A stretch of 45,335 bases of DNA, taken from an uncultured Bacteroidales bacterium. Lineage in GTDB: Bacteria > Bacteroidota > Bacteroidia > Bacteroidales > UBA932. Position numbers and translations under genes: made by a program. The stretch spans positions 1-45,335 of the forward strand of contig CAMVJR010000006.1 in NCBI GenBank assembly GCA_947167855.1. Reading direction: 5' to 3'. This document shows positions 326 through 29,311 of this stretch, piece after piece. Position 1 is the stretch's first letter. Each line of letters begins with the position of its first letter. The notes beneath the pieces are model-generated. The model saw only the letters and a program-made list of their open reading frames with translations. It did not search any database and was not told the DNA's origin.

Positions 326-2533
326 TTAGAGTCTTACGTTCTTCTTGAGACGGATGTCCTGGGAGGAGGCACCTACCTGGAGCTTCACCTTCTTGCCGGA
401 GAAGGCCCATTCGTGCTTGTCCATATCCCAGAGCTTGAGATCATCGGCCGGGATTACAATTTCCACGTCCTTGGTCTCACCGGCCTTCACGGCCACGCGG
501 TCAAAGCCACGGAGGCGCTTGGAGGCTTCGTCATTCTTGAACTTGGCGTATACCTGCACCACTTCCTCGCCGTCGCGGGAACCGGTGTTCTTGAGCTTGA
601 ACTTGACCACATAGTTGCCATCCTTCTTCTCTACCTTCATCTTGGAATACTTGAAGGTGGTGTAGCTGAGACCGTAACCGAACGGGAAGATGGGCTTGGT
701 CTTGGCATACATATAGGTACGGCCGTTGGTGATGTCGTAATCCAGGAGGTTCGGGAGATCCAGGATGTCGCTCACCCAGGTCTGGGTGGTACGGCCGGCA
801 GGGTTGTAGTCACCAAAGAGGACATCGGCCAGGGCGGTACCGAGCTCCTGGCTGCACTGGGTGATGTGCACAATGCCGGGAACGTGCTTGGCGGTCCAGT
901 TGATGGCATACGGGAAGCTGGAGATAAGGGCTACCACGGTGTTGTGGTTTACCTTCCAGATCACTTTGATGAGGTCTTCGGTCTCCAGCTGGAGGCTGCG
1001 GCGGTCCAGGGCTTCGCGGCCGTCACCGGCTACGGTACCCATGGCCCAGGGGCTCTGCACGGACATAGGGCCCCAGTCGGGGCTGGTGGCCGGGTGGTTA
1101 CCCACGCACACGATGCAGATATCGGCCCACTTGGCCAGTTCCTGGGCGCTACCGTCGGAGTCCCAACGCTGGAACTTCACTTCCACGTCGGTTCCCTCGA
1201 CCTTGGCCTTGATGCCGTCCAGGGCTGTTACCTTGTAAGCAGGCAGGGCGCCATACCAGTCCTTCAGAACCTGATCGGCCCTGTTACCAAATACGGCAAT
1301 CTTCTTGACCTTGTTCTTGTCGATGGGCAGGATGTTGCCCTCGTTCTTGAGGAGAACAACGGACTTCTGGGTTACCAGGAGGGCCTTGTCCTTGAATTCC
1401 TGACGCTCCCAAGGGATGTCTTCGTCGGAGCCGAAGTTCTGCTGATCGTAAGGGCATTCGGCATCCATCAGGCCGAGGCGCAGCATGGTGCGGAGGTTGG
1501 CCTTGGTGCAGTCGTTGATGGTCTGCTCGGAGAGGAAGCCGGCGTCATAGGCAGCCTTCACCTGCTCGAAGCGGGAGTCGATGAAGCGGGACAGACCGGC
1601 ATCCAGGGCCATCTGGATGGCCTCGTTCTCGTCCTTGGCATAGCCGTGCATTTCCGGCATATACATAAAGCGGAGAGCGCCGGCATCGTCAACGATGGTA
1701 CCCTTCATGCCCCATTCGTTAATGAGGACTTCTTTGATAAACGGAGCGGCAATACAAGGAACGCCGTTGTAAGCGTTGTAGGCGGTCATCACCGACATGG
1801 AGCCGGCCTTGGCGCCTTTCCAGAAGCCATAGCTATAATATTCGCGGAACTGCTTCTCGTCAAAGCGGGAATCAGTCTTGTAGCGGTTGTCTTCGTTACT
1901 GTTGGCCAGGAAGTGCTTCATAAGGGCGGCGCTTCTCCAATAAGTAGAATCGTCTCCCTGGATACCCTTTACCTCGGCGGCAACGAGCTCGCCCACCAGG
2001 AAGGGATCTTCACCAAAGCTTTCCTCGGTGCGGCCCCAGCGGGGATCACGGGCGAGGTCGGCGTTGGGAGCCCACAGGATGAGGCTCTTGCGGGGATTGT
2101 CCTTGGAATAGAAGCGGGCCTCGTAGGACATCACGTCACCTACGATCCAGGCCATTTCGCGGTCCCAGGTCTCACCAATACCGTAAGCCTGCGGGAACGC
2201 GGTGCTGTTGCGATACTTGGGCGGCACATAGCCGGGCCAGTTACCGCCGCCAAACTGACCGGCATTGCCGGCGTTGGGCAGTTCGTTGGAACCACCTTTC
2301 ACAATACCGTGGATGGCCTCGGCAGCGCCGGGGTTGGCAATGCCCAGACGGGGCACGCCCTGACCCACGATGGTTCCCAGTTTTTCTTCCACCGTCATAA
2401 GGGAGACGGCATTGTCCAGGCGCTCCTCCTCAGAGAGTTTGGGATCCTGGAAAGGATAAGTTACTTCCTGCGCACGAACCAGGGCCGATGTCAGGAGCAA
2501 CGCACCCAATGCAGCATAGAAATAGGTTTTCAT
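326..2533 (-). CDS. Glycoside hydrolase family 3 protein (beta-glucosidase/beta-xylosidase type)
   Basis: 735 aa, signal peptide; GH3 features: RDPRWGRTEESFGEDPFLVGE, KHFLANSNEDNR, TIVDDAG, C-terminal FnIII-like domain (FPFGYGLSYTTFKYS, RGFDRVAVKAGETKDVEI). Confidence 0.93.
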   Translation of the reverse strand: MKTYFYAALGALLLTSALVRAQEVTYPFQDPKLSEEERLDNAVSLMTVEEKLGTIVGQGVPRLGIANPGAAEAIHGIVKGGSNELPNAGNAGQFGGGNWPGYVPPKYRNSTAFPQAYGIGETWDREMAWIVGDVMSYEARFYSKDNPRKSLILWAPNADLARDPRWGRTEESFGEDPFLVGELVAAEVKGIQGDDSTYWRSAALMKHFLANSNEDNRYKTDSRFDEKQFREYYSYGFWKGAKAGSMSVMTAYNAYNGVPCIAAPFIKEVLINEWGMKGTIVDDAGALRFMYMPEMHGYAKDENEAIQMALDAGLSRFIDSRFEQVKAAYDAGFLSEQTINDCTKANLRTMLRLGLMDAECPYDQQNFGSDEDIPWERQEFKDKALLVTQKSVVLLKNEGNILPIDKNKVKKIAVFGNRADQVLKDWYGALPAYKVTALDGIKAKVEGTDVEVKFQRWDSDGSAQELAKWADICIVCVGNHPATSPDWGPMSVQSPWAMGTVAGDGREALDRRSLQLETEDLIKVIWKVNHNTVVALISSFPYAINWTAKHVPGIVHITQCSQELGTALADVLFGDYNPAGRTTQTWVSDILDLPNLLDYDITNGRTYMYAKTKPIFPFGYGLSYTTFKYSKMKVEKKDGNYVVKFKLKNTGSRDGEEVVQVYAKFKNDEASKRLRGFDRVAVKAGETKDVEIVIPADDLKLWDMDKHEWAFSGKKVKLQVGASSQDIRLKKNVRL

Positions 2534-2609: not shown

Positions 2610-3518
2610 CTACCAGTCGGTAACCTCGGTGACTACACCTTTCTCAAGTTTGAAAACGTTGGAATAGTTGTAAGCACCGGAAGGATTGAACTTTCCGTCG
2701 GGAGCATATGCTGTAGGAACCGTCACTTCCACATCCATCCAGAAGTAATCCCTATACTGCTCAGGAGAGCCCCAGGCTTCGAAAGCCTCTTGATTGAACA
2801 CTCTCCGAATTTCCGTATGCTCGGGAACAATGTCATAATGGGCACCGATAGCGGCGATACGGATGTAGTGAGCGCGCTCGTACTGGAACTCTTCGGCGTT
2901 GGCAGCGAGCTGGGTATCCACATACAGGGTCACAGTCTGCTCCACAGAAGGATCAAGATTGGTAACGATAGCCTCAGGGTCGTTCTCGCACTTGTTATAG
3001 GAACGCTTTACAAAGCGGTCGGGATAGACGCAGAGAACAACGGCACCAATGTTATTAATCTTGTCTGCGGGGAAGTTGGCCTTCACCGTGCAGGTGGCCT
3101 TAATCTTCTTGGTAGCAGCATCGTACTCAACATGGGCATTCTTAATGGTAACAAAGGGAGTCACATTGAAGTTTACAGTATTCTCGCCTTTCTTAAGGAT
3201 GAAATCCTGAGGTTCAGCCATAAAGTTAGCGTTAGAAACCGTATTCATAGTGTATTCACCAGCGAAAACGAGGTCATTACGGTAAGTACCGTCGTTCTTA
3301 ATACGCCAGCTCTGGTTTGCCTGGGCATCCCAGCCATGTTCCACAACGACGATGTAATTACCATGTTCAGACTGAACAGGCTCGCCGGTGGTAGTATCAA
3401 GAAGCTTTCCCTGGACTTTTGCGTCCCAACCTTCCTGGTTGTCAAGCTTGAACCAGCTGCAGGAAGCAACCGTTACAAGCATCAGAGCGCAAGAGAAAAT
3501 AGATATAAGTCTTTTCAT
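2610..3518 (-). CDS. DUF3823-like lipoprotein in SusE position of a PUL
   Basis: 302 aa, lipobox (VTVASCSWF), EGWDAKVQGKLLDTTTGEPVQSEHG start typical of DUF3823; directly after SusD. Confidence 0.75.
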   Translation of the reverse strand: MKRLISIFSCALMLVTVASCSWFKLDNQEGWDAKVQGKLLDTTTGEPVQSEHGNYIVVVEHGWDAQANQSWRIKNDGTYRNDLVFAGEYTMNTVSNANFMAEPQDFILKKGENTVNFNVTPFVTIKNAHVEYDAATKKIKATCTVKANFPADKINNIGAVVLCVYPDRFVKRSYNKCENDPEAIVTNLDPSVEQTVTLYVDTQLAANAEEFQYERAHYIRIAAIGAHYDIVPEHTEIRRVFNQEAFEAWGSPEQYRDYFWMDVEVTVPTAYAPDGKFNPSGAYNYSNVFKLEKGVVTEVTDW

Positions 3519-3524
3519 AATCTT

Positions 3525-5480
3525 TTATTCCTGAGAAGGGTTAGGAGTAAGTTTGTTGGTGGTGTTCCAGTTGCTGATAGGACCATAGTAAGCGAGGGGG
3601 CTCCAAGAAGCAACAGACTCTTTCACATCAGTATCCCAATCGTAGTGGTTGGCGCGTACAAAGACGTACTTGGGCGTACCATCACGCAGATCGAGGATGG
3701 GAAGGAGAGCGTGCTTACGACCACCAGTAGGGTTGAGCTGTTGGTCACGCTCACGATTGAAGAAGGCACGTCTTCTGAAAAGAGTACGGGCATAGTCTTC
3801 TTCGAAAGAGAGTTCTACACGGCGCTCGTGAAGGATGTTGTCAATGGTAGCGTCACGCTGATCCAGGAAGTATGCGCGGCGACGGATGTCGTTGAGGTAC
3901 TTCTTGGACTGACCGGCGTTGGGACCATTCTTCTCTACCTGAGCCTCGCAGTAGTTGAGGAGGATCTCAGCGAAGCGGATGTCATACCAAGGGTTCTGGG
4001 ACTCAGATACAGACTTTGCGGAGTCTAAGTACTTACGAACACCGAAACCGGTGGTGTACCAAGAGCCGTCATTGGTGCTACCTCTCTTGTAGAAACCGGA
4101 GAAATAGGTTTCAGAAATAGCTCCATAGCCATAATAATCCTTACCGCCAACAGTTGCCTTGGGGTTGGACTCATCATAGACCACGAGCTTACCAGTGTTA
4201 TCCCACATACCAGCCTGGATAATGATGGGGGTGCTGCGGAATGTAACGCCAGGATAGATAATGAAGGCCTGGAAACGGGCATCCTTATTCTTGAAGGGGC
4301 CGTCCATGGAGTCGTACTTCTTGAGGTTGAGGCCCTTGATGGCATTCATACCAACCGTCTGGGAAGGAAGGGCAATTACGTAACCCTCGTCGCCGGCATT
4401 CAAAGTTTTGATGGTACCATCTACGCCACCGAAATTGGCATCGTAGTTGTCAAATACATCAACCAGATCAAGGGTAACACCGTAGCAACCGAACTTCCAA
4501 ACGCCGGTACCGGAACCGTGAACCTGGTTCGGAGAGTTCTTAAGGTCGAAGCCGTTAGAATTGGTAGTAACACCATTCTTGTAGCTACGTCCAAAAATGA
4601 ACTCATCATTCTGGCGGCTCTGGAAGAGAGCGTCAAAATTCTTAACAGCATCTGCGACACTGCCAGGAGTTGCTCCGTACAGCTTGAATTTACCGGAATT
4701 GATGATGGCCTCGGAGGCTGCAATGCACTGGTCGTAGTAACCGGCGGCATCGTCAGAGTTCATATAAGCGAGTTTCTCGTTCACTGCCTTATAGGTGTTG
4801 GCCAGACCGGCTTTATCCCAGTACTTACATACAGAAGCAGCCCACAGAGCAGCGCGGGACTTAAGGCCCAGAGCAGCCCACTTGGTGGCACGGTAGTTAG
4901 TTTGGCTACGGGATTCGGGAAGAAGGGTTGCGGCTTCATCCAGTTCGGAGAGCACGAAATCCCAGGTTTCCTTTTCCGTGGATCGGGGGATGTAAAGACC
5001 CTCATTCTTATCGCCGTCAAACTTATCGTCCAGGGGTTCGGTTACAATGGGAACACCACCGTAATAACGAACAGAAGCGAAATAGTAGTAAGCACGGATA
5101 AACTTGGCCTCGCCAAGAAGCGAATTATAAGTAGCTTCCGTGATGATTTGCTTTTCCTTGGCTTCGCTAATGGACTTGATGAAGAAGTTGATATCACGGA
5201 CATAGGTATAATTCCAGGAACCGCTAACACCACCGGAATAGGCACTGCCGCCGGAGGTCTCGTTGGCATTAGGCGTATTTTTCTCGCTTTCGGAGAAAGC
5301 GCCCATAGGGAGAGACTGGTACAACGCCGACATAAGACGGTCCAGTCCGGCTTCAGTAGCAGTAAGGTCATCGGCAGACATCTTGGTCAGGTCTCCTTCA
5401 AGATTATTGAAAATCTTGTCGCAGGAAACGAGGGCCAGGGCCGCTACTGCAGTGAAAACAAAAGTAAGTATCTTTTTCAT
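3525..5480 (-). CDS. RagB/SusD family nutrient uptake outer membrane lipoprotein
   Basis: 651 aa, lipobox (LALVSCDKIF), SusD motifs (AEAKFIRAYYYFASVRYYGGVPIVTEPL; RFAEILLNYCEAQ; ILHERRVELSFEE). Confidence 0.95.
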   Translation of the reverse strand: MKKILTFVFTAVAALALVSCDKIFNNLEGDLTKMSADDLTATEAGLDRLMSALYQSLPMGAFSESEKNTPNANETSGGSAYSGGVSGSWNYTYVRDINFFIKSISEAKEKQIITEATYNSLLGEAKFIRAYYYFASVRYYGGVPIVTEPLDDKFDGDKNEGLYIPRSTEKETWDFVLSELDEAATLLPESRSQTNYRATKWAALGLKSRAALWAASVCKYWDKAGLANTYKAVNEKLAYMNSDDAAGYYDQCIAASEAIINSGKFKLYGATPGSVADAVKNFDALFQSRQNDEFIFGRSYKNGVTTNSNGFDLKNSPNQVHGSGTGVWKFGCYGVTLDLVDVFDNYDANFGGVDGTIKTLNAGDEGYVIALPSQTVGMNAIKGLNLKKYDSMDGPFKNKDARFQAFIIYPGVTFRSTPIIIQAGMWDNTGKLVVYDESNPKATVGGKDYYGYGAISETYFSGFYKRGSTNDGSWYTTGFGVRKYLDSAKSVSESQNPWYDIRFAEILLNYCEAQVEKNGPNAGQSKKYLNDIRRRAYFLDQRDATIDNILHERRVELSFEEDYARTLFRRRAFFNRERDQQLNPTGGRKHALLPILDLRDGTPKYVFVRANHYDWDTDVKESVASWSPLAYYGPISNWNTTNKLTPNPSQE

Positions 5481-5493
5481 AGATGCGTCTTAT

Positions 5494-8400
5494 TTAGAAG
5501 TTGATATTGACACCAGCGCTGAAGTTCTTCATCAGCGGAGTACCGGCAATACCGAGGTAGCTACCCTGGTTACGTTCAGGATCGTAGGGCTTGAGGAGTT
5601 TGTTGCAGAAGGTCAAGAGGTTGGTTCCGTTGGCATAGACACGCAGGGAACGGACATGAAGCTTCCGCAGGAAGGTAGGATGGAAAGTATAACCCACCTC
5701 AATGCTCTTCAGACGGAGATAGGTACCGTCCACGAAGGTATAAGGCTGGTTGGCGCCGTAGGTAATGGCGTTATACTTACTACTAGCGTTACGTTGATCG
5801 TAAGCAGAGCTGGCGGGGATAAGGGCCGGCCAGTAACCGGCGACCCACTCGGTAGCAGGGTCAAACGGGTCAGCGGTGGCGTCTGCGGGATGCCAGCGGT
5901 CCATATAGTTCTGATAGAAGGTCTTGAAGAAGCCATAACCCATACCACCGGACAGAGGAACCTGCTTAGATACCAGCGTAGCAGCATTAAAGGTTACGTT
6001 GAAGTCCAGGTTCTTCCAGCTACCGGACAGCACCAGACCGAACTGGAGCGGCGGGTTGCCTTCACCCCAGGTGTAGTACAAATCGTTGCTGTCGATAGTA
6101 CCATCGGCGTTGCGGTCCTGAATCTTGTACATACCAGGCAGAAGCTTCTCCATATCATCACCATAATAGACATTGGTGCTGCTGATATCGGCCCAGCTGG
6201 TGAACTGAGGGTTACCGGGCAGCCAGTGATAAGTGCTGGAGCTGCGGGCGTTGGACCAACGGCCAACCATATGACTGGCATAGTAGTTGGCGGAGGAAGT
6301 GTATATCTTGGTCTCTTCCGTCTTCTGATAAGTGGAGCGATAACGGGAGAAGGAGGCGTTGAACTGGATGCGGTAGTTGAAATCCTTGATGTGATTTCTG
6401 TGATACAGCGTGAAGTCAATACCTACGTTTTGGTCGGCGTTAAGGTTCATCTGAGGGAGGGAGATACCCAGGAACTCAGGAACGGTGGCGGTGGAGGCAG
6501 CGGCGATACCAGAGGTGTTTCTCCAGAACCAGTCTACGCTACCACCCAGGAGGCCGCGCCACATTTCAAAGTCAAAACCGAAGTCCATCATACGGACCTT
6601 AGCCCAAGAAATAATGGTTTCAGCAGGGCTGTGATTGACATAACCGGCAACCTGACCGCCGTCTTCAAACACATAGTTACCGCTGCTGGAAAAACCGGAC
6701 AGGTAGGCATAGGCGTTACCCTGAGGACGACCGGTCAAACCATCAGACCAACGGAACTTGAGGTTGTTCACGAACGGGAGAATGCTCTTGAAGAATTTCT
6801 CTTCGGAGATACGCCAACCCAGGGAATAGGACGGGAAGAAGCCCCAGCGGTGACCGGGAGCATAGAGGTAGGTACCGTCGTAACGGGCCATGAGCTCTAC
6901 AAGATACTTACCCTGATAGTCGTAGTTAACACGGCCAACATAACCGGCAGAAGCGTTGGAAGAACGAGAACCGGAGTTGGAGGCAGTGGAAGAATCACCT
7001 TGGTCAATGATGTCGTGAGTGAAGAAGTCACCATACTCACGTCTGGCAAAGATGGAGCGAGACTGATTGATGGTTGCTTCGGCAGCCAGCGTTGCACCCA
7101 GATGGTGATTGCGGGCAATAGTAGTGTTGTAGTTGGCCTGAATGCGTCCGTAGTACTTGATATAAGAGTTCCAAGTCTCCTCATACGCGTTCTTGTCAGG
7201 GTTATAGGTGGCTAAATTGCCAGTAACCTGATCGTACAGAGGGAAATGCAGGGAAAGAGTGGAGCTCTTACGGTCTACTACGTCGTATGCAGCGGATGCC
7301 TGGAAGTTGAGGCCCTTGAGGAAAGGAGCGTCATACTTGAGGTCGGCATTGTTACGGAAGGTGATACCTCTATCCTTCTTGGAACCAGCCACGGAAGAGG
7401 TCATCAAGGCAGCCGGGTTACGATGCTCTCCACCCGGATCCACAAACTTGTTGGGATCGTCGGCCAGCGTTGCATGAACGGTACGATCGGTCAGGAATCC
7501 GTAGTACATGGCGTTCTGAGTGGTATTTGCCGGCGGCATTTCCTGGTCGGTCACGTTGATGGAACTCTGGAAAGTAAAGGTGAGTTGAGGGGTAAGATGG
7601 GTGGTAAAGTTAGCGGTGAGGCCGTAACGATTGTAGTCACCGGTATCGGCGCGATAGATAGCGTCCTGCTTGGTGAAGTTACCGCTCACATAGTACTGGG
7701 TGGCGTTGTTACCGCCGCGCAGGGAGACATTGTGAACCTGGGAGAAGGTGTGACCCTTGAATACGGCGTCGTACCAGGAGAAATCTTCGTAACCGGGATC
7801 GTGGTTGCGATAATGAGCGATGGTTTCGGCGTCATACTTGCTACCTTCGTGGTGGTTGCGCATCTGCTCGTTCACCATTTCCATATAGGTAGCTACATCC
7901 ACTTCCTTGGGAAGGGCGGTAGGTACACCGAAGGTAAGGGTGTTGGAGTAGTTGATGGTGGGCTTACCAATCTGGCCCTTCTTGGTGGTCACGAGGATAA
8001 CACCGTTCTGGGCGCCCAGACCATAGATGGAGGCGGAAGCATCCTTGAGCACGGTAATGCTCTCGATGTCTTCGGGGTTCAGTTCTGCCAGGGCGGCGCT
8101 GCTGGACTGATTATCAGACATCCAGCCCCAATACTGAATGGACTTGGAGGAACGGGCCACACCGTCGATGATTACAAGCGGGGCGCCATAGCCACGCAGG
8201 GAGATATCCTGGTCGAACCAGCCCACGGAACCGGAGTTCTGACGGATCTGGAGTCCGGGCACCTTACCCTGGAGGGAGGCAACGAGGTCGCTCTGCTTGG
8301 TGGAGGTGATGTCCTCGGCCTGGATATTGGTGATAGCGCTGGTCAGGGACGCTTTCTTCTGCGTACCGTAACCTACGACCACCGTCTCTTCCAGCTCGGT

Positions 8401-8706
8401 GGATTCCTCCTGCAGGGTGATGTTCATCGTAGAGGAGGTCACTTTTACCGTAAGGGTCTCATAACCAATGGCAGAAACCACCAGTTCGGCACCAGACGGA
8501 ACGGTGATGGTGAATTTACCATCGACGTCACAAGCAGCACCGTTAGAGGTACCGGCCTGCATGACGGCGGCACCAATAACGGGCTCCTTGTTAGCGTCGA
8601 GAACGGTTCCCTTCACCGTGAGGTTTTGAGCGGACAGAACCGATGCGCCCAGGACAAGTCCCAGACCCAGGGCTACGAGCCGCTTGAGGAAGTTGTTGGT
8701 TCTCAT
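5494..8706 (-). CDS. SusC/RagA family TonB-linked outer membrane protein
   Basis: 1070 aa; N-terminal carboxypeptidase-like domain (VKGTVLDANKEPVIGAAVMQAGT), TonB box region (EETVVVGYGTQKKASLTSAI), plug (SASIYGLGAQNGVILVTTKKG), C-terminal barrel ending in aromatic F. Confidence 0.96.
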   Translation of the reverse strand: MRTNNFLKRLVALGLGLVLGASVLSAQNLTVKGTVLDANKEPVIGAAVMQAGTSNGAACDVDGKFTITVPSGAELVVSAIGYETLTVKVTSSTMNITLQEESTELEETVVVGYGTQKKASLTSAITNIQAEDITSTKQSDLVASLQGKVPGLQIRQNSGSVGWFDQDISLRGYGAPLVIIDGVARSSKSIQYWGWMSDNQSSSAALAELNPEDIESITVLKDASASIYGLGAQNGVILVTTKKGQIGKPTINYSNTLTFGVPTALPKEVDVATYMEMVNEQMRNHHEGSKYDAETIAHYRNHDPGYEDFSWYDAVFKGHTFSQVHNVSLRGGNNATQYYVSGNFTKQDAIYRADTGDYNRYGLTANFTTHLTPQLTFTFQSSINVTDQEMPPANTTQNAMYYGFLTDRTVHATLADDPNKFVDPGGEHRNPAALMTSSVAGSKKDRGITFRNNADLKYDAPFLKGLNFQASAAYDVVDRKSSTLSLHFPLYDQVTGNLATYNPDKNAYEETWNSYIKYYGRIQANYNTTIARNHHLGATLAAEATINQSRSIFARREYGDFFTHDIIDQGDSSTASNSGSRSSNASAGYVGRVNYDYQGKYLVELMARYDGTYLYAPGHRWGFFPSYSLGWRISEEKFFKSILPFVNNLKFRWSDGLTGRPQGNAYAYLSGFSSSGNYVFEDGGQVAGYVNHSPAETIISWAKVRMMDFGFDFEMWRGLLGGSVDWFWRNTSGIAAASTATVPEFLGISLPQMNLNADQNVGIDFTLYHRNHIKDFNYRIQFNASFSRYRSTYQKTEETKIYTSSANYYASHMVGRWSNARSSSTYHWLPGNPQFTSWADISSTNVYYGDDMEKLLPGMYKIQDRNADGTIDSNDLYYTWGEGNPPLQFGLVLSGSWKNLDFNVTFNAATLVSKQVPLSGGMGYGFFKTFYQNYMDRWHPADATADPFDPATEWVAGYWPALIPASSAYDQRNASSKYNAITYGANQPYTFVDGTYLRLKSIEVGYTFHPTFLRKLHVRSLRVYANGTNLLTFCNKLLKPYDPERNQGSYLGIAGTPLMKNFSAGVNINF

Positions 8707-8742: not shown

Positions 8743-9957
<1,215 letters not shown>

Positions 9958-9966
9958 TTATCGATG

Positions 9967-9974
9967 CAAATGTA
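9967..9974 (-). promoter_or_regulatory. Predicted Bacteroidota -7 promoter element (TACATTTG) upstream of the esterase-susCD operon
   Basis: Matches TAnnTTTG on the minus strand, 48 nt upstream of the ATG at 9918; no TTTG -33 element at about 20-nt spacing. Confidence 0.6.
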
Positions 9975-10006
9975 AAAACAATTAAATAGGAACACATTCT
10001 CACTTG

Positions 10007-10019
10007 TTCAATTGTTTTT
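10007..10019. promoter_or_regulatory. Candidate regulator-binding motif TTCAATTGTTTTT (copy 1)
   Basis: Identical 13-mer occurs at 12340-12352; each copy starts 32 nt beyond a predicted minus-strand -7 box. Confidence 0.5.
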
Positions 10020-10035
10020 CCATATGAACAAACCG

Positions 10036-10821
10036 CTATTTAAACGAGTTTCCAATAGCCACAAGGGCCTTTTTCAGGCACTCTGGCCAGAAATTCCAGT
10101 CGTGACCTCCGGCGCGTTCGATAAACTGATGGGGAATGTCATAGGACATCAGTAGCTGGTCGCAGTTGCGAACAGACTCAATGCTAACAGTATAATCCTG
10201 CGTACCGGACTCCAGGGTGATGAACGGAAAGACGGACTTGTCGGGCTGGGCAGAAATAAGGTTTCCCAACGAAACTGGATACCAGGATAAACTGGTGGCC
10301 GGACTCATAGCATAGCCATATGTAAACATCGTGGGATATTTGAGACCATAATATAAGGTACCCCAGCCACCCATGGAAAGACCGGCCAGAGCACGCTTTC
10401 CGTTGCAATGGTAAGTCTCTTCCAGAAAAGGCATCAGTTCCTTGAACATATAGTCCTCGAAATCGCCCACGTAGAAATCCTGAAGGCCGTCCGGCATTAC
10501 AATCACCATAGGCACGCCATCTTCCTTAAGATACTTGTTGGCTATGATATCGGCCCCACCTTTCTGGATCCAGGAGTTATTGTCGTCTCCATACCCGTGG
10601 AGAAGATAGAGGAAAGGATAGGTTTTCTTGGAATCATATCCGCCCGGGAGCCAAATCGTATACTTCATCTGCTTCTTCTTGTAGGTACTCACCATCGAGG
10701 AACTCAATACGGAGCCAGCGGGCGAATAATCACCCTTCTTTCCCCCGTCATTAGACAGTTTGTCGCAGGAGGGAAACAACATCACAAGGGCGAGGACCGC
10801 CCATAGCAACTTGTCTTTCAT
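10036..10821 (-). CDS. CE1-like esterase, lipoprotein
   Basis: 261 aa, lipobox (MLFPSCDKL), YPFLYLLHGYGDDNNSW, ALAGLSMGGWG, ERAGGHDWNFW. Confidence 0.9.
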   Translation of the reverse strand: MKDKLLWAVLALVMLFPSCDKLSNDGGKKGDYSPAGSVLSSSMVSTYKKKQMKYTIWLPGGYDSKKTYPFLYLLHGYGDDNNSWIQKGGADIIANKYLKEDGVPMVIVMPDGLQDFYVGDFEDYMFKELMPFLEETYHCNGKRALAGLSMGGWGTLYYGLKYPTMFTYGYAMSPATSLSWYPVSLGNLISAQPDKSVFPFITLESGTQDYTVSIESVRNCDQLLMSYDIPHQFIERAGGHDWNFWPECLKKALVAIGNSFK

Positions 10822-12278
10822 TAGTCTAATTTAGATTCAATATTGATTTTCAAGATTTTCGGCCAGGCCTGCCACTCGGGCATCCCTTCGGCCTGGGGCT
10901 TTCCGTCCTTGGCAAAAGAGGTCCAGAGGGCACTTACGCGGTGACCCAGTTCAACGGCATCCTCTCCCCCGCCGGTAAAGGTGCGGTGACGGAGCACATT
11001 GTCAAACACAAACGGGATCTCTATGCAGTGCGTGCTGCCCAGGGCGCCGTCCAGCACCGGCGACTCCCAGGTGAACTGATAAAAGTACACGGGAGCGCAG
11101 CCGGCAGCCGTACGGTCTGCAGCCTGCTTGCGGGCCAGGGGCTTGAAGATAGGGTCTTCCTGGTCCCGGGTAAATTCGTGATAGACGGTGCCGATAATGA
11201 CGGGCACTTCCTTGGAAAGCGCCAGTCCCTCCGGAGAAGAAGGCTGGGCGGGGATATCCTCGCCGTCCACTACCGGACACTGGCCGAAGAGAAGCTGGTT
11301 CAGAATGTTCTCCGGCAGAGCTCCGTCCTGACGGGCGTCTGCCGTCACCTCCTGGATGGCCTTGTGATAGGCCGCATACAATTTCTCATAAGGAACGGAG
11401 GCCATCTCGTCAATCTTGGCGGGAGAAATACCCAGGTTGGCCACCGTGGCTGCGCCAATGCGGCGGGAATACTTGGGGCTCATTAGGTTGGTGATGGAGC
11501 CGCTCTGCACAATGGCCTTGTGGAAAAGGCCCTTGGCGGCCGGCATGGCCATAAGGGTGCTCACCTTGCCGCCACCGCCGCTCTGGCCGAAGATGGTCAC
11601 GTTGGCGGGGTCTCCACCGAAGTTGGCAATATTCTTATTGACCCATTCCAGGGCCTTGACAATATCCAGCATACCCACATTACCGGAATGGGCATATTTA
11701 GCACCATAACCGCTCAGGTCCAGGAAACCCAGGGCGTTGAGCCGGTGGTTCAGGGAAACCACCACCACACCGTGGTCGCGGGCCAGGTTGGTGCCGTCGT
11801 AGCCGGCCTGTTCCTGCGAGGAGCCCTCCCGGAAGCCGCCGCCGTGCAGCCACACCATCACGGGAAGCTTGCTGCCGGCCTTGATGCTGGAGGTCCACAC
11901 ATTCACGCGGAGGCAGTCCTCTCCGGGATAGCCGTCGTCCCAATGCATGGTAAAGGCCTGGTTGTCGTCTCTCCAACCGGCACGGTCCGGATGGGGGCTC
12001 ACGGGGCCGTATGCGCGGCTGGCCCTCACCTCTTTCCAAGGGGCGGGATCTGTGGGCGGCATAAAGCGGGCCGCCTCACCGTAAGGGATACCTTTATAAA
12101 TGTACACGCCATCGTCAATGTAACCGGCCACGGGACCGGACACGGTATTGACGGTAGAAGCCTTTGCGGAAGTTTCAAGGCCGGACGCAGGAGACAATGC
12201 CTTCCTCTGGACGGGCTGTCCACAGGAGACCATCAGAAGAGCGGCTGCCATAAGGGATAAGTTTAGTTTCAGTGTCAT
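10821..12278 (-). CDS. Carboxylesterase family (type B) protein
   Basis: Start reassigned to MTLKLNLSLMAAALLMVSCGQ (ATG at 12278, lipobox). Motifs EDCLRVNVWT, VWLHGGGF, FGQSGGGGKVS, GSTHCIEIPFVF. Stop overlaps the next gene start by 1 nt. Confidence 0.9.
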   Translation of the reverse strand: MTLKLNLSLMAAALLMVSCGQPVQRKALSPASGLETSAKASTVNTVSGPVAGYIDDGVYIYKGIPYGEAARFMPPTDPAPWKEVRASRAYGPVSPHPDRAGWRDDNQAFTMHWDDGYPGEDCLRVNVWTSSIKAGSKLPVMVWLHGGGFREGSSQEQAGYDGTNLARDHGVVVVSLNHRLNALGFLDLSGYGAKYAHSGNVGMLDIVKALEWVNKNIANFGGDPANVTIFGQSGGGGKVSTLMAMPAAKGLFHKAIVQSGSITNLMSPKYSRRIGAATVANLGISPAKIDEMASVPYEKLYAAYHKAIQEVTADARQDGALPENILNQLLFGQCPVVDGEDIPAQPSSPEGLALSKEVPVIIGTVYHEFTRDQEDPIFKPLARKQAADRTAAGCAPVYFYQFTWESPVLDGALGSTHCIEIPFVFDNVLRHRTFTGGGEDAVELGHRVSALWTSFAKDGKPQAEGMPEWQAWPKILKINIESKLD

Positions 12279-12299
12279 GGCTTGGTTGGTTTGGGTATG

Positions 12300-12307
12300 C
12301 AAAGTTG
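12300..12307 (-). promoter_or_regulatory. Candidate -7 element (CAACTTTG, one mismatch to TAnnTTTG) upstream of the carboxylesterase operon
   Basis: Minus strand, 21 nt upstream of ATG 12278. Confidence 0.4.
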
Positions 12308-12339
12308 AAAAAAAGCACGAACACAGTCTTTTTCGCATT

Positions 12340-12352
12340 TTCAATTGTTTTT
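12340..12352. promoter_or_regulatory. Candidate regulator-binding motif TTCAATTGTTTTT (copy 2), in the divergent carboxylesterase/HTCS intergenic region
   Basis: Same 13-mer as 10007-10019 with identical spacing to the minus-strand -7 box. Confidence 0.5.
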
Positions 12353-12370
12353 TCTACTGTTCAAAATGCT

Positions 12371-12378
12371 TATATTTG
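12371..12378 (+). promoter_or_regulatory. Predicted -7 element (TATATTTG) for the HTCS gene
   Basis: Exact TAnnTTTG match 5 nt before the ATG at 12384. Confidence 0.45.
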
Positions 12379-12383
12379 CCTTC

Positions 12384-15300
12384 ATGAACCGCAATTTTAT
12401 TCCCCTCATTTTGGGTCTCCTGGCGTTAAGCGCCTGTGAATATGACGGAGGAGAAATCCCCGTACCGGAAGAAGGCAGCATCCTGGTATCCAACCGCCTG
12501 TCCAACCAGCGCGTCAACTGCATCACGGAAGACGCCGGGGGGCTCATCTGGATGGGCACCCAGCGCGGCCTCAACCGCTTTGACGGCCATGAATTCGTCC
12601 AATTCTTCTGCACGGACGACACCTTGGGCCTTCCGGACAACCAAATCTATGCCCTCCACCCCACCTCCAACGGCGCCGTATGGGTAACGGCCGTGGGCGG
12701 AGCCGCCGTTTCCACCATGGAGGGAGTCTTTGTCCGCGTCCCCATCGAAGACGCCAACATCAATCTCAACCAGATTATGGAAACCCGCAGCGGCAAGCTG
12801 CTCTTCTCCAACGGCACCAACCTCCTTACCTATATAGAAAGCCAGAACGTCATCCGCCCGGCCATCCGGGGCATGAACGCCTTCGGGGCACAATCCGTTT
12901 GCCTGGATGCCCAGGACCGCCTCTGGGTTATCACCGGCGGCGGCTGGGCCCTCAACTGCTACAGCGCAGAAGACTATTCCCTCCTGAGCACTATCCGTAT
13001 CCCCTTCCAGGCATACCACATAGCAGACGGCAAAGACGGCACCATCTGGCTCTCCGGCATGGGAGACCTGGGAATTTTAAGGGCCGAAGATGCCACGTGG
13101 CAGCCCCTCCCCTCCTCCATCCAGGCCGAAAAACGCCTGATGGACGGTGACATTGACCAGCTTTACGCCCTGGATCCCGGCAACATGCTGCTGGGGACCA
13201 TCGGTCATGGGTTCTTCCTTTATCAGAAAAACTTAAACCGAGTCATCTATCAGGCCGAGGACGATTTCCCGTACGAGATGCCCAATGCAGAAATCCGCAC
13301 CCTCTTCCGCGACAGCCGGGAAAACCTCTGGATGGGAACCACGGACAAGGGCTACAGCGTATCCTACCATACCAAGAACCTGTTCAGCAGCAACAAGCCG
13401 CTGGTCAAGGAGTTTGAAGACAAGACCGTTACCGCACTGTGCCCGGACCAGGACGGCAACCTCTGGATCAGCACCCTCATGGACGGTCTCTGGCGTTACG
13501 ACCTGGAATCCCGCAAACTGGAACAGATCCCGCTGGAGCCCTATATCCAGGACAACAGCCTGGGTTACATCCGCGTAAGCCGCATCTTCTGTGACGCCGA
13601 CGGAGACCTCTGGCTGGTCTTCACGGAGAAGATGCGCGTGATCCGCTGCCGCTGGAACGGCAAGCAACTGGCCGCTTCCGACGCCTTCTTCCTGTACTCC
13701 CCCATGGCCATCACCCAGGATGACCAAGGCTACATCTGGGTTGGCAACTACAGCCAGAACCTCCTCCGCTACAACAAAAACACCCGCGAGACCAAGTACG
13801 TGAGCCTCTCGGACCAGTGGACCTACGTATCCGACCTCGTAATGAAGGAGCCCGGCCGGCTCATCGTGGGCTGCTTCAACAGCCTGCCCATAGAGGTGAA
13901 CACCTATACCCTGGAAGTCAAGGACATCCCCATCACCGAGGAAGAATACAAAGACGCCGTACGCCGTTCCGTCCTCATTCCCAACAAACTGTTCAAAGAC
14001 AGCACCGGTGACATCTGGCTGGGCACCATCACCAACGGTCTCATCAAAAACGACCACCAGACCAACCAAAAACTTCCCGTGGAGGGCCTCCCCTGCCCGG
14101 ATGTCACCTCCATCGAGGAAGACCTCCAGGGCCATATCTGGGTCTCCACCATGAACGGACTGGCCAAGTACGACCGCACCGACGGCCGCTTCCGCTTCTA
14201 TATGAAGGAAGACGGAACCGGAGGAGACCAGTACAGCGACCGCGCCTCCTGCATCCTGTCGGACGGAACCCTGGTCTTCGGCGGCACCCACGGTCTCACG
14301 TGGTTCCACCCGCTGGACGCCCCGGCCAAACGCACCGTTCCGCTGGCCTTCGAGTACCTGAGCATCCACAACCAGATGGTGCAGCCCTGCGAAGGCGGCC
14401 CCATTGACAAAATCCTGGCCGCCAAGCCGGACATCACCATCCGCAACAACCACAACGCCTTCAGCATCACGTTCTGCGCCCTCGAATACAGTGACTTTGA
14501 CCAGGTGCGCTACGCCTACAAGCTGGAAGGCTTTGACAAGGACTGGATCCGCATCAACACCCAGCACAGCGTATACTTCTCCAACCTGCCTCCGGGCAAG
14601 TACAAGTTCCGCGTGCGCATAGCCAACGCCAGCCAGAGCATTACCTCCACCGAAGATTTCCTCAACATCCACGTGCTGCCGCCGTGGTACCGCAGCGGCT
14701 GGGCCACTGTGCTCTGGAGCCTGCTGGGCCTCTTCCTGCTGTCTGTAGCCTATACCTTCGTCCGGCACATCCGCCGCGTCCGCAAGGAAGCCGCCCGCCG
14801 CATCTGGCAGGTGCGCCGGGAGAGAGAAAGGGCCGAAGAAGCCGAAAAGGCCGAAAAGGAACTCAACAAGATCCAGCAGAACTACTTTGCCAACGTGGCC
14901 CACGAGTTCCGCACCCCGCTTACGATGATTGCCGGCCCTGCCCAGCAGCTTTCGGATTCCGAGGTCATCCAGGGGCAGGACAAGAAACTCGTGGACATCA
15001 TCCACCGCAACGCCACCTGGCTGCTCTCCCTGGTGAACCAGCTGCTGGACTTCAACCGCATCGGCAACAGCAAGCTGCAGATGAAGGTAGCCAACATAGA
15101 CATTGTGCAGCCCTTGAAGGACACCGCAGACCTGTTTGGCTTCAACGCCAAAACCAAGGGCATAGAACTCAACACCTATGGCCTGGAAGAGCCCTTCCCT
15201 ATGTGGGTAGACGCCGACAAGGTGCAGAAGATCGTGATGAACCTCCTGTCCAACGCCCTCAAGTTCACCCCCGCCGGCGGCCGCGTCTCCCTCTCCTTCG

Positions 15301-16442
15301 ACGTCCTTAGCCGGGCCGACGCCCTTCGCCGCTTCCCCCTCACCCAGGCCGACCAGGACACCCAGTGGGCCTGCATCAGCGTAGCGGACAGCGGCCCCGG
15401 CATCCCGGAAGACCAGTTGGAAAAGATTTTCGAGCGCTACTATCAGTCCGAGGCCGGCAAGAAATCCTATGGCTCCGGCATCGGCCTGTATTATGCCCGC
15501 GTGCTGTGCACCCTGCACCACGGCTATATCAAGGCCTGGAACCGGCCCGAAGGCGGAGCCCTGTTCTCCATAGCCATTCCCGTGAACGAAGCCTCCTACA
15601 CGGAGGAGGAGCGCACCACCCAGGCGCCGCTGCTCCAGACCCATCAGCTGGCCCAGGACATCACGGACGAGACGGCGGAGGAAGAGGCCAACAAGAAGCA
15701 CATCGTGGTCATTGACGACGATATTGACATTGCCAACTACCTGAAGGTGATGTTGAAGCCCCACTACAAGGTAACCCTCTACTACGACGGAGACAGCGCC
15801 CTCAAGGGAATGGCCGAAGACGCCCCGGACCTCATCATCTCCGACGTGGTGATGCCCGGAATGGACGGCTACGAGGTGTGCCGCCGCATCAAGGCAGACC
15901 TCCAGCTGAGCCACGTTCCCGTGGTGCTGGTTACCGCCAAGGTAGCCGTGGAGAACCAGGTGGAAGGCCTGGACAAGGGCGCCGACGCCTATGTGACCAA
16001 GCCCTTCCAGCCCGCCTACCTGATGGCCCTCATCAAGTCCCTGCTGGAAAACCGCGAAAAACTCCACCGCCAGTTGGGCAGCGCCACTTCCACGGAAGAC
16101 ATCGCCCCCGAGGCCCTGTCCCCGCGCGACGCCGCCTTTATGAAGGAACTCTACGAACTGATGGAAAAGGAACTGGCCAACGCAGACCTCGACATTGTCC
16201 AGATTACGGAAATGATGAAGATCTCCCGTACCAAGTTCTATTATAAGGTAAAGGGACTCACCGGAGAGAACCCGTCCGTGTTCTTCAAGCGTTACAAACT
16301 CAACCGTGCCGCCGACCTCCTCAAGGAAGGCAAGCACAATATGAGTGAGATTGCCTGGATGACCGGTTTCAACACCCTCTCCCACTTCTCCACCTCCTTC
16401 AAGAAACAGTTCGGAGTCCCGCCTTCCGAGTACGTAGGATAA
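12384..16442 (+). CDS. Hybrid two-component system (HTCS) sensor/regulator
   Basis: Start reassigned to MNRNFIPLILGLLALSAC (signal/lipobox). Beta-propeller repeats (IWMGTQRGLNRFDG, LWMGTTDKGYS), Y_Y_Y domain, TM, HisKA (NVAHEFRTPLTMI), HATPase (NLLSNALKFTPAGG, GSGIGLYYAR), receiver (VVIDDDIDI, ISDVVMPGMDGYE, TKPF), AraC-type HTH. Confidence 0.96.
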   Translation: MNRNFIPLILGLLALSACEYDGGEIPVPEEGSILVSNRLSNQRVNCITEDAGGLIWMGTQRGLNRFDGHEFVQFFCTDDTLGLPDNQIYALHPTSNGAVWVTAVGGAAVSTMEGVFVRVPIEDANINLNQIMETRSGKLLFSNGTNLLTYIESQNVIRPAIRGMNAFGAQSVCLDAQDRLWVITGGGWALNCYSAEDYSLLSTIRIPFQAYHIADGKDGTIWLSGMGDLGILRAEDATWQPLPSSIQAEKRLMDGDIDQLYALDPGNMLLGTIGHGFFLYQKNLNRVIYQAEDDFPYEMPNAEIRTLFRDSRENLWMGTTDKGYSVSYHTKNLFSSNKPLVKEFEDKTVTALCPDQDGNLWISTLMDGLWRYDLESRKLEQIPLEPYIQDNSLGYIRVSRIFCDADGDLWLVFTEKMRVIRCRWNGKQLAASDAFFLYSPMAITQDDQGYIWVGNYSQNLLRYNKNTRETKYVSLSDQWTYVSDLVMKEPGRLIVGCFNSLPIEVNTYTLEVKDIPITEEEYKDAVRRSVLIPNKLFKDSTGDIWLGTITNGLIKNDHQTNQKLPVEGLPCPDVTSIEEDLQGHIWVSTMNGLAKYDRTDGRFRFYMKEDGTGGDQYSDRASCILSDGTLVFGGTHGLTWFHPLDAPAKRTVPLAFEYLSIHNQMVQPCEGGPIDKILAAKPDITIRNNHNAFSITFCALEYSDFDQVRYAYKLEGFDKDWIRINTQHSVYFSNLPPGKYKFRVRIANASQSITSTEDFLNIHVLPPWYRSGWATVLWSLLGLFLLSVAYTFVRHIRRVRKEAARRIWQVRRERERAEEAEKAEKELNKIQQNYFANVAHEFRTPLTMIAGPAQQLSDSEVIQGQDKKLVDIIHRNATWLLSLVNQLLDFNRIGNSKLQMKVANIDIVQPLKDTADLFGFNAKTKGIELNTYGLEEPFPMWVDADKVQKIVMNLLSNALKFTPAGGRVSLSFDVLSRADALRRFPLTQADQDTQWACISVADSGPGIPEDQLEKIFERYYQSEAGKKSYGSGIGLYYARVLCTLHHGYIKAWNRPEGGALFSIAIPVNEASYTEEERTTQAPLLQTHQLAQDITDETAEEEANKKHIVVIDDDIDIANYLKVMLKPHYKVTLYYDGDSALKGMAEDAPDLIISDVVMPGMDGYEVCRRIKADLQLSHVPVVLVTAKVAVENQVEGLDKGADAYVTKPFQPAYLMALIKSLLENREKLHRQLGSATSTEDIAPEALSPRDAAFMKELYELMEKELANADLDIVQITEMMKISRTKFYYKVKGLTGENPSVFFKRYKLNRAADLLKEGKHNMSEIAWMTGFNTLSHFSTSFKKQFGVPPSEYVG

Positions 16443-22848: not shown

Positions 22849-25037
22849 TACTGGAAATAGATTTCGTCAATACCTACGTTACGGGTGTGGGAGGCCACAA
22901 AGCGCAGCTCCACGTGCTCCGGACGGCTGAAACCGATGGCTCCCTTGAACACCACTTTCTCCCCTTCATCCACATAGTCCACGAGGCCTTCGCGGCGGAG
23001 GACCCCGATGCTGCGGTCATCGGCCCATACTTCCACCGACTTGGGCGGAGCCATGCGGTGGCGCTCACTGTTGAGGAAGGAGATGGTGAATTCACCGGAC
23101 TTGCCGGCCAATACATCGGCCGGGAGCTCGATCACCAGGTCTTTCTGGGGGTAGACCTGCCAGCCCCAGTGATAGTTCTGGGAGATACCGGCCACCGCAT
23201 CCGTGAGCTTGGTGGTCTTCTCGGAGCCGCCTTCGTATCGCACCAGAAGCGGGTGCCGCAGCAGGAGGTCGTTGTTCCAGGCACCGCTGGCCAGCCACAG
23301 TTCCACTTCGTTCTCATAGTCCGCCACATACACACCCTGTTCGTTCACACGGTCCATGTGGTCCATGGCGGCGTTTTCGTTGTCCGTCAGGATCCAGAGG
23401 TCGTCTTCCGGGGTCATGATCTTGAGGTCTTCTACGGCCGACCACACCTCGGGTTTCACCACCCATTCGTCACCCACCAGCTCTGCAAAACCGCCCGATC
23501 CCAGGCCATGGATGCGGCACATCTCCAGGAAGGAGAAGCTCACAAACTGGCGCGTCTTCTCATACAGCACACGCTCGCGATGGGTCATCTCCATGGCGCT
23601 TGCGCGCAGGAACACGGAGTAGAACTCGCGGAAGTCCTTCTCCGAGAGGTAAGACCGCAGGGATTCCTCCATGCCGCCGTACAACGGGAGTTCGGAACCG
23701 CTTTTGCGGGCCTGCTGCTCCATGGACAACACCACCGAGGCATAGAACTGGCCCACATTGGGCATGGCATCCTGGTAATACTCCTTGACCATGCGATCGA
23801 TATCGGCATCGGGGTTGATGAGCAAATGGGCCAGCAGGAAAGAATACATCTCCTGCTGCATGGAATAGAAGTAGCCGGAACCATTGAGGAACAGGCCCTT
23901 CACGCCCCTCTTGCGATACTGGCGGAAACGCTCCTGCATCACATACAGGATGGGATAAGGGGTAAGATAATCGTCAAAGTTGGAAACGTAGTCCCAGATA
24001 TAGACATTGTCCGTCAGCGCCTGCCACTCTTCCAGCTCCCGGAAGAATTTCTGGCTGCGCTCATCCTGGGAATTCCAGTTACGGGGATAGTCTATAGCCG
24101 ACAGAAATACGCCCACATTGTGCGCCAGATGGTGGTCCGGAAGGGCTTTAGTGGTGGAATAACCCGGAATAAAGAAGGTGTGCGCCGGGAAACGGGCCGC
24201 CAGACGCTCCACAAACTGGACCACCGCCGGCGTGGCGTTGTTTTTGGTATTGCCGGCCGTCTCGCAGCGGCGGCACAAGCACACCCAGTCGTTATCGGCC
24301 GGGCCGATGGTCATGCGGTAAGGGAACTTGGAACCGTCTCCGTACTGGTCCATGATGTACTTCTCCGTCAGGTCCAGGAGTTTGTCGGAGGAGAAGCAGA
24401 ACTGGTTCTGGTGCACCACGCCGTCGGCTCCGCGGGCAAAGAGTTCCTGGTCCATGTTCTGGTAACCGAAGGAAAGGTCACCGTTACTGCCCAGCACACG
24501 GGACAGGTTGTGTCCCCAGATGCCCCAGTCCACTTCCAGATTGTTCAGGGCCAGCAGATAGGTCATGTCTATGTTCTGGTTGGTGGGCATATAGAGGTCA
24601 CGGTACTCAAACGGGAAGGTAACCACCGTGTCACGGCCGCTCAACAGCAGCGGCGGGAGGTCTTCCGTGTTGATGCCCTTGTCTTCCCGGCCGGCCATCT
24701 TGATAAACTGATACACCAGCCAGACCATGGTACGCTCGTCCTTGGCGCGGAGGTCGTAACCGCCGCCCGGCAGACGGGAGAAACCGAAATCTCCCCCGAA
24801 ATCATCGGCCACGTGGATGCAGACCTCTACCCCCTTGCGGTCCAGGATATTGGACTCGCTGCGGCGCTGGAGGTGCCTCTTGAGGTAGTCGCTCATCTTG
24901 GCATCCAGGGCACGTCCCTGCACGTCCGGGTGAACGTAATACTTGTGCACGGCATCCGAGCCACGCACCAGGTTGTTGCATCCAACGCTAAGAAGACCAA
25001 CCAGCAGCAGATTAGAAAGAAATCGAAAGAGAGACAT
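22848..25037 (-). CDS. DUF4838 domain lipoprotein (putative glycoside-hydrolase-like)
   Basis: Start reassigned to MSLFRFLSNLLLVGLLSVGC (ATG 25037, lipobox). Contains the GPADNDWVCLCRRCETAGNT core and RYRKRGVKGLFLNGSG, plus a C-terminal beta-rich domain. Confidence 0.75.
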   Translation of the reverse strand: MSLFRFLSNLLLVGLLSVGCNNLVRGSDAVHKYYVHPDVQGRALDAKMSDYLKRHLQRRSESNILDRKGVEVCIHVADDFGGDFGFSRLPGGGYDLRAKDERTMVWLVYQFIKMAGREDKGINTEDLPPLLLSGRDTVVTFPFEYRDLYMPTNQNIDMTYLLALNNLEVDWGIWGHNLSRVLGSNGDLSFGYQNMDQELFARGADGVVHQNQFCFSSDKLLDLTEKYIMDQYGDGSKFPYRMTIGPADNDWVCLCRRCETAGNTKNNATPAVVQFVERLAARFPAHTFFIPGYSTTKALPDHHLAHNVGVFLSAIDYPRNWNSQDERSQKFFRELEEWQALTDNVYIWDYVSNFDDYLTPYPILYVMQERFRQYRKRGVKGLFLNGSGYFYSMQQEMYSFLLAHLLINPDADIDRMVKEYYQDAMPNVGQFYASVVLSMEQQARKSGSELPLYGGMEESLRSYLSEKDFREFYSVFLRASAMEMTHRERVLYEKTRQFVSFSFLEMCRIHGLGSGGFAELVGDEWVVKPEVWSAVEDLKIMTPEDDLWILTDNENAAMDHMDRVNEQGVYVADYENEVELWLASGAWNNDLLLRHPLLVRYEGGSEKTTKLTDAVAGISQNYHWGWQVYPQKDLVIELPADVLAGKSGEFTISFLNSERHRMAPPKSVEVWADDRSIGVLRREGLVDYVDEGEKVVFKGAIGFSRPEHVELRFVASHTRNVGIDEIYFQ

Positions 25038-27825: not shown

Positions 27826-29311
27826 CGGTTTTCTTTTCTTCGAGGGCATGCTGGGCCACGGGCGCCGCCGGCTTGGGAGCGGCGGGCTTGGCACTCTGCA
27901 CACCCTTACGGGTCATGTTACCCCATACCATCTGGGTGCCCCAGATGTGCTTCCAGTAACCCTTCAGGCTAAAGAACACATTGAGCGGATGGTACATAAT
28001 CGGTTCCAGCAACGAGGCCAGCACAAACCACAGGTAATCCCTCTTCTTCTTGAAGGAGGTGCCCACCCATACATCGTAGGAGATAATGACCATGGTGAGC
28101 AGTTGCGCAAAGAGGTACACGCCCACATACGCAATCCAGATGGTGCTGTAGTTGATGGCACCCCGGATGAGGAACCAGATAATGGTGAAATATCCCATGA
28201 ACTCCACTACAGGAGCCATCAGTTCAAAGATGAGGATATAGGTGAGCGTCAGAACGCCGTAACGGCGGTAGTTGCGGTTGCCCACCATATCCCGGTGCAC
28301 GCCGAAGAACTGGAACAGGCCACGGCCCCAGCGCGTACGCTGGCGGTTGAGCACCTTGAGGTTGGGCGGACCTTCCGTCCAGCAGCAGGTTTCGGGGATC
28401 TGGACAATGCGGTAGTCTTCACCCGCATCGCACATGTATCGGATCATACGGGCCACCATGTCCATATCCTCGGCAAAGGAGTCACCGTCATAGCCGCCAG
28501 CCTTGATCACGATATCGCGGTCAAACATACCAAAACCGCCGGATACGTTCTGCAGAGCATTGATACGGGCCAGGGCCGTCTTGCCGATGAGGAAGGAACG
28601 GGTGTACTCCAGATCCTGGAAAAGCGGGATCAGGTCGTGGGGCGGACGGGCGTCCACCATCTTTCCTTCTTCCACGATACTGCCGTTACTCATACGCATG
28701 GAAGCACTCACAGCTATCACGCGGCGGGTAGAGGCCATGGTGGGCCAGATAATGCGGTACAGGGCGTACTGGTCCAGCACGCAGTCCACGTCCGTACAGA
28801 CAAAGAACTTGTTGGACACCACGTTTACGCCGGCGTTGGAGGCATCGGCCTTGGTACCACCGTTGACCTTGTCCACAACGGTGAGGCGTTTGAAGGCGGG
28901 ATTGTCGCTCTTGGTCTTGTACAGGCCCTTGAAAGGCTTGGTCTTGATCTTTTCCACATAGGCATAGGGAACCTTGACCAGGTCAAAATTCTCTATGAGC
29001 AGCTGGAGCGTCTTGTCCTTGGAGCCGTCGTTCACAATGACCACCTCAAAGTCCGGATAGTCCAGGCTCAGCAGGGACTTCACGTTGGTGATCACGGTCT
29101 TTTCCTCATTGTAGGCCGGAGCCACAATGGAAATACCGGGCGTATAGGGAGACTTCTTGAGCTCTTCGATGGTGTAGGCGTCGTCGTGGTACGTGTAGTG
29201 CTTCCGGTGTTCCAGGAACGCCAGGATAGCCATGATCACATAGCTACCTATCACGAAGGTGGAATACACCAACACGAAGTAACTGAATACAGTATCGAAC
29301 CACTCAAGCAT
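27818..29311 (-). CDS. Processive-type family 2 glycosyltransferase, multi-TM (PgaC/hyaluronan/cellulose synthase-like)
   Basis: 497 aa; SIVAPAYNEEKTV, VIVNDGSKD, CTDVDCVLD, SFAEDMDMVARM, RQRTRWGRG (QxxRW), N- and C-terminal TM segments. Confidence 0.92.
   Translation of the reverse strand: MLEWFDTVFSYFVLVYSTFVIGSYVIMAILAFLEHRKHYTYHDDAYTIEELKKSPYTPGISIVAPAYNEEKTVITNVKSLLSLDYPDFEVVIVNDGSKDKTLQLLIENFDLVKVPYAYVEKIKTKPFKGLYKTKSDNPAFKRLTVVDKVNGGTKADASNAGVNVVSNKFFVCTDVDCVLDQYALYRIIWPTMASTRRVIAVSASMRMSNGSIVEEGKMVDARPPHDLIPLFQDLEYTRSFLIGKTALARINALQNVSGGFGMFDRDIVIKAGGYDGDSFAEDMDMVARMIRYMCDAGEDYRIVQIPETCCWTEGPPNLKVLNRQRTRWGRGLFQFFGVHRDMVGNRNYRRYGVLTLTYILIFELMAPVVEFMGYFTIIWFLIRGAINYSTIWIAYVGVYLFAQLLTMVIISYDVWVGTSFKKKRDYLWFVLASLLEPIMYHPLNVFFSLKGYWKHIWGTQMVWGNMTRKGVQSAKPAAPKPAAPVAQHALEEKKTDA

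Follow-up and report, generated by a model that had tools for sequence, protein, structure and literature searches.

Among the glycan-responsive switches of Bacteroidota, HTCSs form a major class, and to our knowledge few of their operators are known at the level of single bases. In the window, by which is meant the whole stretch of 45,335 nucleotides that was analysed, an HTCS gene stands beside two minus-strand PUL operons, and the same 13-mer, TTCAATTGTTTTT on the forward strand and AAAAACAATTGAA on the minus strand, precedes both. The question that this locus raises is whether the shared word is the operator through which the HTCS controls the two operons, as an earlier note had proposed. 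The answer reached here is a divided one: the 13-mer does appear to mark the HTCS operator of both operons, but the predicted operator unit is a tandem pair of half-sites with a 20-bp period, and the 13-mer is only the junction between them. The features on which this reading is based are collected in Table 1.

Table 1. Predicted operator sites, promoters and genes of the HTCS locus (window coordinates).
Feature	Position	Strand	Basis or remark
P2 distal half-site TTTTGAACAGTAGAAAAA	12349..12366	-	Matches ortholog consensus TTTTGAACAAATAGAAAA
P2 proximal half-site AATTGAAAATGCGAAAAA	12329..12346	-	Exactly 20 bp past distal; conserved in L154-L159
13-mer copy 2, junction of P2 half-sites	12340..12352	-	Exact-copy search
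P1 distal half-site GTTTGTTCATATGGAAAA	10016..10033	-	Conserved in L110, L154, L157; weaker in L155, L159, L160
P1 proximal half-site AATTGAACAAGTGAGAAT	9996..10013	-	Ortholog model match
13-mer copy 1, junction of P1 half-sites	10007..10019	-	Exact-copy search
Predicted -7 box CAACTTTG, carboxylesterase operon	12300..12307	-	TTTG starts 41 nt downstream of proximal TTGAA
Predicted -7 box TACATTTG, esterase-SusC-SusD-GH3 operon	9967..9974	-	TTTG starts 41 nt downstream of proximal TTGAA
Predicted -7 box TATATTTG, HTCS gene	12371..12378	+	Sequence; 5 nt before ATG (12384)
HTCS gene, proposed regulator	12384..16442	+	Pfam Reg_prop, Y_Y_Y, HisKA, HATPase_c, Response_reg, HTH_18
Carboxylesterase, P2 operon gene 1	10821..12278	-	Pfam COesterase
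Putative esterase, P2 operon gene 2	10036..10821	-	Pfam Esterase
CBM48-like + esterase, P1 operon gene 1	8743..9918	-	Pfam
SusC-like TonB-dependent receptor, P1 operon	5494..8706	-	Pfam
SusD-like protein, P1 operon	3525..5480	-	Pfam
DUF3823 protein, P1 operon	2610..3518	-	Pfam
GH3 glycoside hydrolase, last P1 operon gene	326..2533	-	Pfam

The two copies of the 13-mer lie precisely where the earlier note had placed them, and exactly 32 nt separate each minus-strand copy from its downstream -7 box, TACATTTG (9974-9967) or CAACTTTG (12307-12300). Both boxes are of the TAnnTTTG type and are predicted from sequence; direct reading found no -33 TTTG 17-23 nt upstream of either, in agreement with the same note. 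When the whole of the organism's own assembly was searched (1,986,069 bp in 173 contigs, 82% complete), no exact copies of AAAAACAATTGAA were found beyond the two in the window. With one mismatch allowed, it occurred at 7 places, fewer than the 13 found for the reversed control, showing that the 13-mer is not enriched at loose stringency. A word of at least 13 nt shared between the two intergenic regions arose in 4 of 2000 dinucleotide shuffles (P ~0.002, with the equal distance not yet counted), and the 13-mer pair, taken alone, is suggestive only as evidence for an operator. The minus strand also holds a diverged copy that had escaped the earlier note, TTTAATTGTTTTT at 9974-9986, in the opposite orientation. 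This copy is probably incidental, since it is not kept in orthologs, and a palindromic operator built from the inverted P1 pair (9974-9986 with 10007-10019) was dropped for the same reason.

Comparison with related loci shows why the 13-mer behaves in this manner. Two half-sites contribute to it, one with its 3' portion (GAAAAACA) and the following one with its core ([AT]TTGAA), and no exact 13-mer is common to the HTCS upstream regions of the orthologs. Even among the close relatives that share the compact arrangement of P2 (L154-L159), the exact word is found only in L154, most of the others carrying ACATTTGAA, and the A of CAATTG, which is the source of the identity between the window copies, is a T in many relatives. 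As it varies even among close orthologs and is unenriched at one mismatch, the 13-mer was rejected as the operator unit. The predicted operator is a pair of ~18-bp half-sites with the consensus TTTTGAACAAATAGAAAA and a period of 20 bp, and it extends over 9996-10033 at P1 and 12329-12366 at P2. At the distal half-site of P1, GTTC replaces GAAC and the match is about equal when read inverted; its true orientation may be the inverted one. The 45-kb window was scanned with a model whose training set consisted solely of more distant orthologs, of the extended layout described below, and which made no use of promoter distance. It scored P1 at 27.2 and P2 at 23.7, followed by the reverse strand of P1 at 8.5, with the remainder at about 0 or below (the next at -0.1). 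Direct repeats seen by eye at 17, 21 or 36 bp had no support in the lag spectrum of the orthologs where it reaches (lags 12-31), and were set aside.

Of 400 genomes of the genus, 75 had an HTCS ortholog at a strict cut-off, and 60 loci were retrieved. In these loci, strong half-site pairs numbered 52 at a lag of 20, compared with 0-4 at each of the remaining lags in the range 12-31. Furthermore, in 37 of 58 HTCS upstream regions the -7 TTTG lies 41 nt from the TTGAA core, and the next-best distance accounts for 6. The constant spacing from the promoter is a real constraint, kept in orthologs. Phylogenetic footprinting, which the earlier note had put forward as a check, upheld the tandem repeat and its promoter distance, but not strict conservation of the 13-mer itself. 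Such operators are conserved upstream of PUL operons in genomes with an orthologous HTCS, and two layouts recur. In the compact layout, the half-sites start 61 and 41 nt upstream of TTTG; it is held by P2 in the window and in L154-L159, and by P1 (the Est1 promoter) in the window and in L154, L155, L157, L159 and L160, where the P1 site is likewise at 41 nt, with a 42-nt variant in L110. In the extended layout, which most of the more distant orthologs have, a strong pair at ~103 and ~83 nt is accompanied by a lone ATTTGAA at 41, and it is from this layout that lags of 61-62 bp originate. Across both layouts the half-site slots are ~20.5 nt apart, which would place the half-sites on one face of the helix. 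A few orthologs (L117, L186, L187 and L189) encode the same recognition helices and have no clear half-site pair beside the HTCS gene; exceptions such as L117 and L186 indicate that the site does not always adjoin that gene.

The association can also be followed at the level of whole genomes. Exact TTTGAAC-N13-TTTGAAC has 57 matches across the 400 genomes of the genus, as opposed to 7 for the reversed control and 18 at a lag of 21. This exact tandem occurs in 43 of the 75 genomes with a close HTCS relative and in 9 of the 325 without one (Fisher P ~2e-28, kinship ignored), counts that are not independent because genomes of one genus are related. Farther away, in the upstream regions of 75 distant HTCS loci (L012-L087), repeated 9-mers peak at lags of 21 (39 regions) and 22 (24 regions) over a background of ~6, which is consistent with direct repeats being a family-wide property of HTCS operators. 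Among these 75 loci, those with a recognisable TAnnTTTG are too few to show whether the distance to the -7 box is constant throughout the phylum.

The proposed regulator belongs to the HTCS class by its Pfam domains, which place a periplasmic propeller sensor, a histidine kinase, a receiver and an AraC-type HTH in a single protein. Its DNA-binding domain is the only one of HTCS type found in the organism's own assembly (82% complete). The putative recognition helices, SRTKFYYKVK and NTLSHFSTSFKKQFG, hardly change as overall identity falls to ~42%, a range in which the repeat is present; in relatives at 38% identity or less, the helices differ and the repeat is absent. At its N-terminus (window 12384-12450) the protein reads LLALSAC, a lipobox-like signal peptide that would be unusual if it meant that the sensor end is lipid-anchored.

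Direct repeats with a mean spacing of 21 bp were predicted for 16 HTCSs by Ravcheev et al. 2013 (PMC3878776), and by its predicted form the window operator is a new example of this known kind. Like the operators predicted in Bacteroides thetaiotaomicron in that study, which pair two sites of 12-16 bp, it is a tandem direct repeat upstream of PUL operons, with the gene of a regulator carrying an AraC-type HTH nearby, and its two similar sites are about as far apart, the orientation of the distal site of P1 being ambiguous. The operator described here, from a different, uncultured genus, has a different half-site, a sharply defined period of 20 bp and, additionally, a fixed distance to the -7 box. 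No published HTCS motif containing TTTGAAC was found in the literature searched. Receiver-HTH fragments of HTCSs bind susCD promoters in gel shifts, and are inhibited when not phosphorylated (PMC11253607). The pairs BT4124/bt4114 and BT4663/bt4662 were bound in this way in the same study, while binding by the window HTCS is a prediction. The α3-β4 loop of its receiver is SHVP, which agrees with the S/CHIP consensus (PMC11253607) at three of four positions.

Taken together, these features suggest a route by which the HTCS might act. Upon binding of a glycan fragment by the sensor domain, the HTCS would be phosphorylated, and its AraC-type domains would sit next to each other on the two half-sites as a dimer, the 20-bp spacing being equal to two helical turns. 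As the proximal half-site starts 41 nt upstream of the -7 TTTG and ends ~26 nt upstream of it, it reaches with its 3' end to the edge of the empty -33 position. This placement points to activation through a direct RNA polymerase contact, in which the proximal AraC-type domain would recruit the Bacteroidota sigma factor to a promoter that has no -33 element. The esterase-SusC-SusD-GH3 operon, the carboxylesterase operon and a third, distant esterase-GH3 operon would thereby be turned on. AraC-type sites such as araI1-I2 of E. coli consist of two same-strand half-sites approximately two helical turns apart, of which the proximal one abuts the -35 element. The window operators resemble araI1-I2 in both respects, the neighbouring upstream promoter element here being the vacant -33 position, but differ in the sigma factor, in the -33/-7 promoter and in the fusion of the regulator to a histidine kinase. 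The repeat, its period, its fixed distance, its conservation in both operons and its co-occurrence with the HTCS are all read from the sequences themselves, and from these it is very probable that P1 and P2 are operators of the adjacent HTCS, a regulator that would switch on both operons and the distant third.

It is improbable, by comparison, that this HTCS serves mainly to repress its own gene and the divergent operon. The distal half-site of P2 does lie a few nucleotides upstream of the HTCS -7 box, between that box and its -33 position, and repression has been reported for some HTCSs whose receiver motif departs from the consensus (PMC11253607), the loop here being SHVP and not SHIP. However, P1 keeps the same layout where there is no divergent HTCS promoter, and the proximal half-site abuts, rather than covers, the -7 box of promoters that lack a -33 element. 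Moreover, the distance from the HTCS -7 box to the distal half-site is variable in orthologs, mostly 13-15, 34-35 or 45 nt, values that are approximately one or two helical turns apart. The same position of the distal half-site makes autoregulation of the HTCS gene possible, as had been suggested for copy 2 of the 13-mer, but not with an offset that is constant between orthologs. A TAnnTTTG also precedes the ATG in 29 of 58 orthologs, mostly by 4-5 nt, and with a gap this short (5 nt in the window, 12371-12386) the HTCS mRNA may have no leader, or almost none.

A still less probable reading accepts the tandem repeat as real, but assigns it to a different regulator, such as a SusR-like or AraC-family protein encoded elsewhere in the genome. 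Binding by the HTCS is predicted only, an unseen second regulator is possible because the assembly is 82% complete, and a weak AraC-like domain (28% identity) is present at C12. Conversely, the repeat adjoins the HTCS gene and co-occurs with the HTCS across the genus, and no second HTCS-type domain is found in the organism's own genome. The geometry also fits published HTCS motifs; SusR-type operators are likewise direct repeats upstream of PUL operons, but they serve a different regulator family and have 67 or 77 bp between sites (PMC3878776), a spacing far from the 20-bp period seen here. Finally, the idea that the shared 13-mer arose by chance in A/T-rich promoter DNA, such as UP-element-like A-tracts, and serves no specific regulator draws on the low complexity of its letters, on the one-mismatch counts and on the shuffled pairs with an equally long shared word, but is highly implausible, as dozens of orthologs keep the GAAC core, the exact 20-bp period and the 41-nt distance, the lag and distance spectra contradict chance, an independently trained model picks exactly P1 and P2 in 45 kb, and an A-tract would not preserve TTTGAAC.

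Under the preferred reading, in which the HTCS activates from P1 and P2, the regulon appears to extend beyond the window. A composite model, whose training sites included P1 and P2 but not the third site, returned from the organism's whole genome P1, P2 and then, scoring far lower but clear, a site at G000:C75:8829-8856. This site, TTTGAACAAACGAAAAAACATTTGAAC, is a near-consensus tandem 42 nt from TTTG, and it stands before a CBM48-esterase and GH3 pair (L233 5404-8857). A matching operator recurs with the same 42 nt in three other genomes (L234, L235 and L237), and in L237 it again precedes a CBM48-esterase gene. The esterase-GH3 operon at G000:C75 is a probable third member of the predicted regulon, unlinked to the other two. 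The esterases and GH3 enzymes would fit a decorated plant polysaccharide, such as xylan or pectin.

Two further observations were made in passing. On the plus strand of L233, at ~1004-1072, a weaker tandem pair, ATTTGAAC / ATTTGTAC, with a lag of 20 and also present in L234, precedes a 221-residue secreted-looking protein with no Pfam match. Elsewhere in the window, at 25012-27903, a 963-residue ORF, rich in TPR matches and with a YaiO β-barrel domain at its C-terminus, adjoins a glycosyltransferase (27818-29311) and a HEAT-repeat protein.

The analysis provides an explicit, predicted operator consensus, half-site spacing and promoter distance for the HTCS of a large uncultured gut genus, and would assign to that HTCS a third operon, unlinked to the other two. 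Simple predictions about spacing, helical phase and the proximal slot follow from the layout. More tentatively, and with doubt outweighing support, HTCS operators may occupy fixed slots at ~41, 61-62, 83 and 103 nt from the -7 box, one for every two turns, with the slot at 41 always filled. If this slot reading is true, the extended layout, with its distal pair and lone proximal half-site, would represent two HTCS dimers cooperating on one promoter; and if the slot geometry is general in Bacteroidota, PUL regulons would become readable straight from raw sequence.
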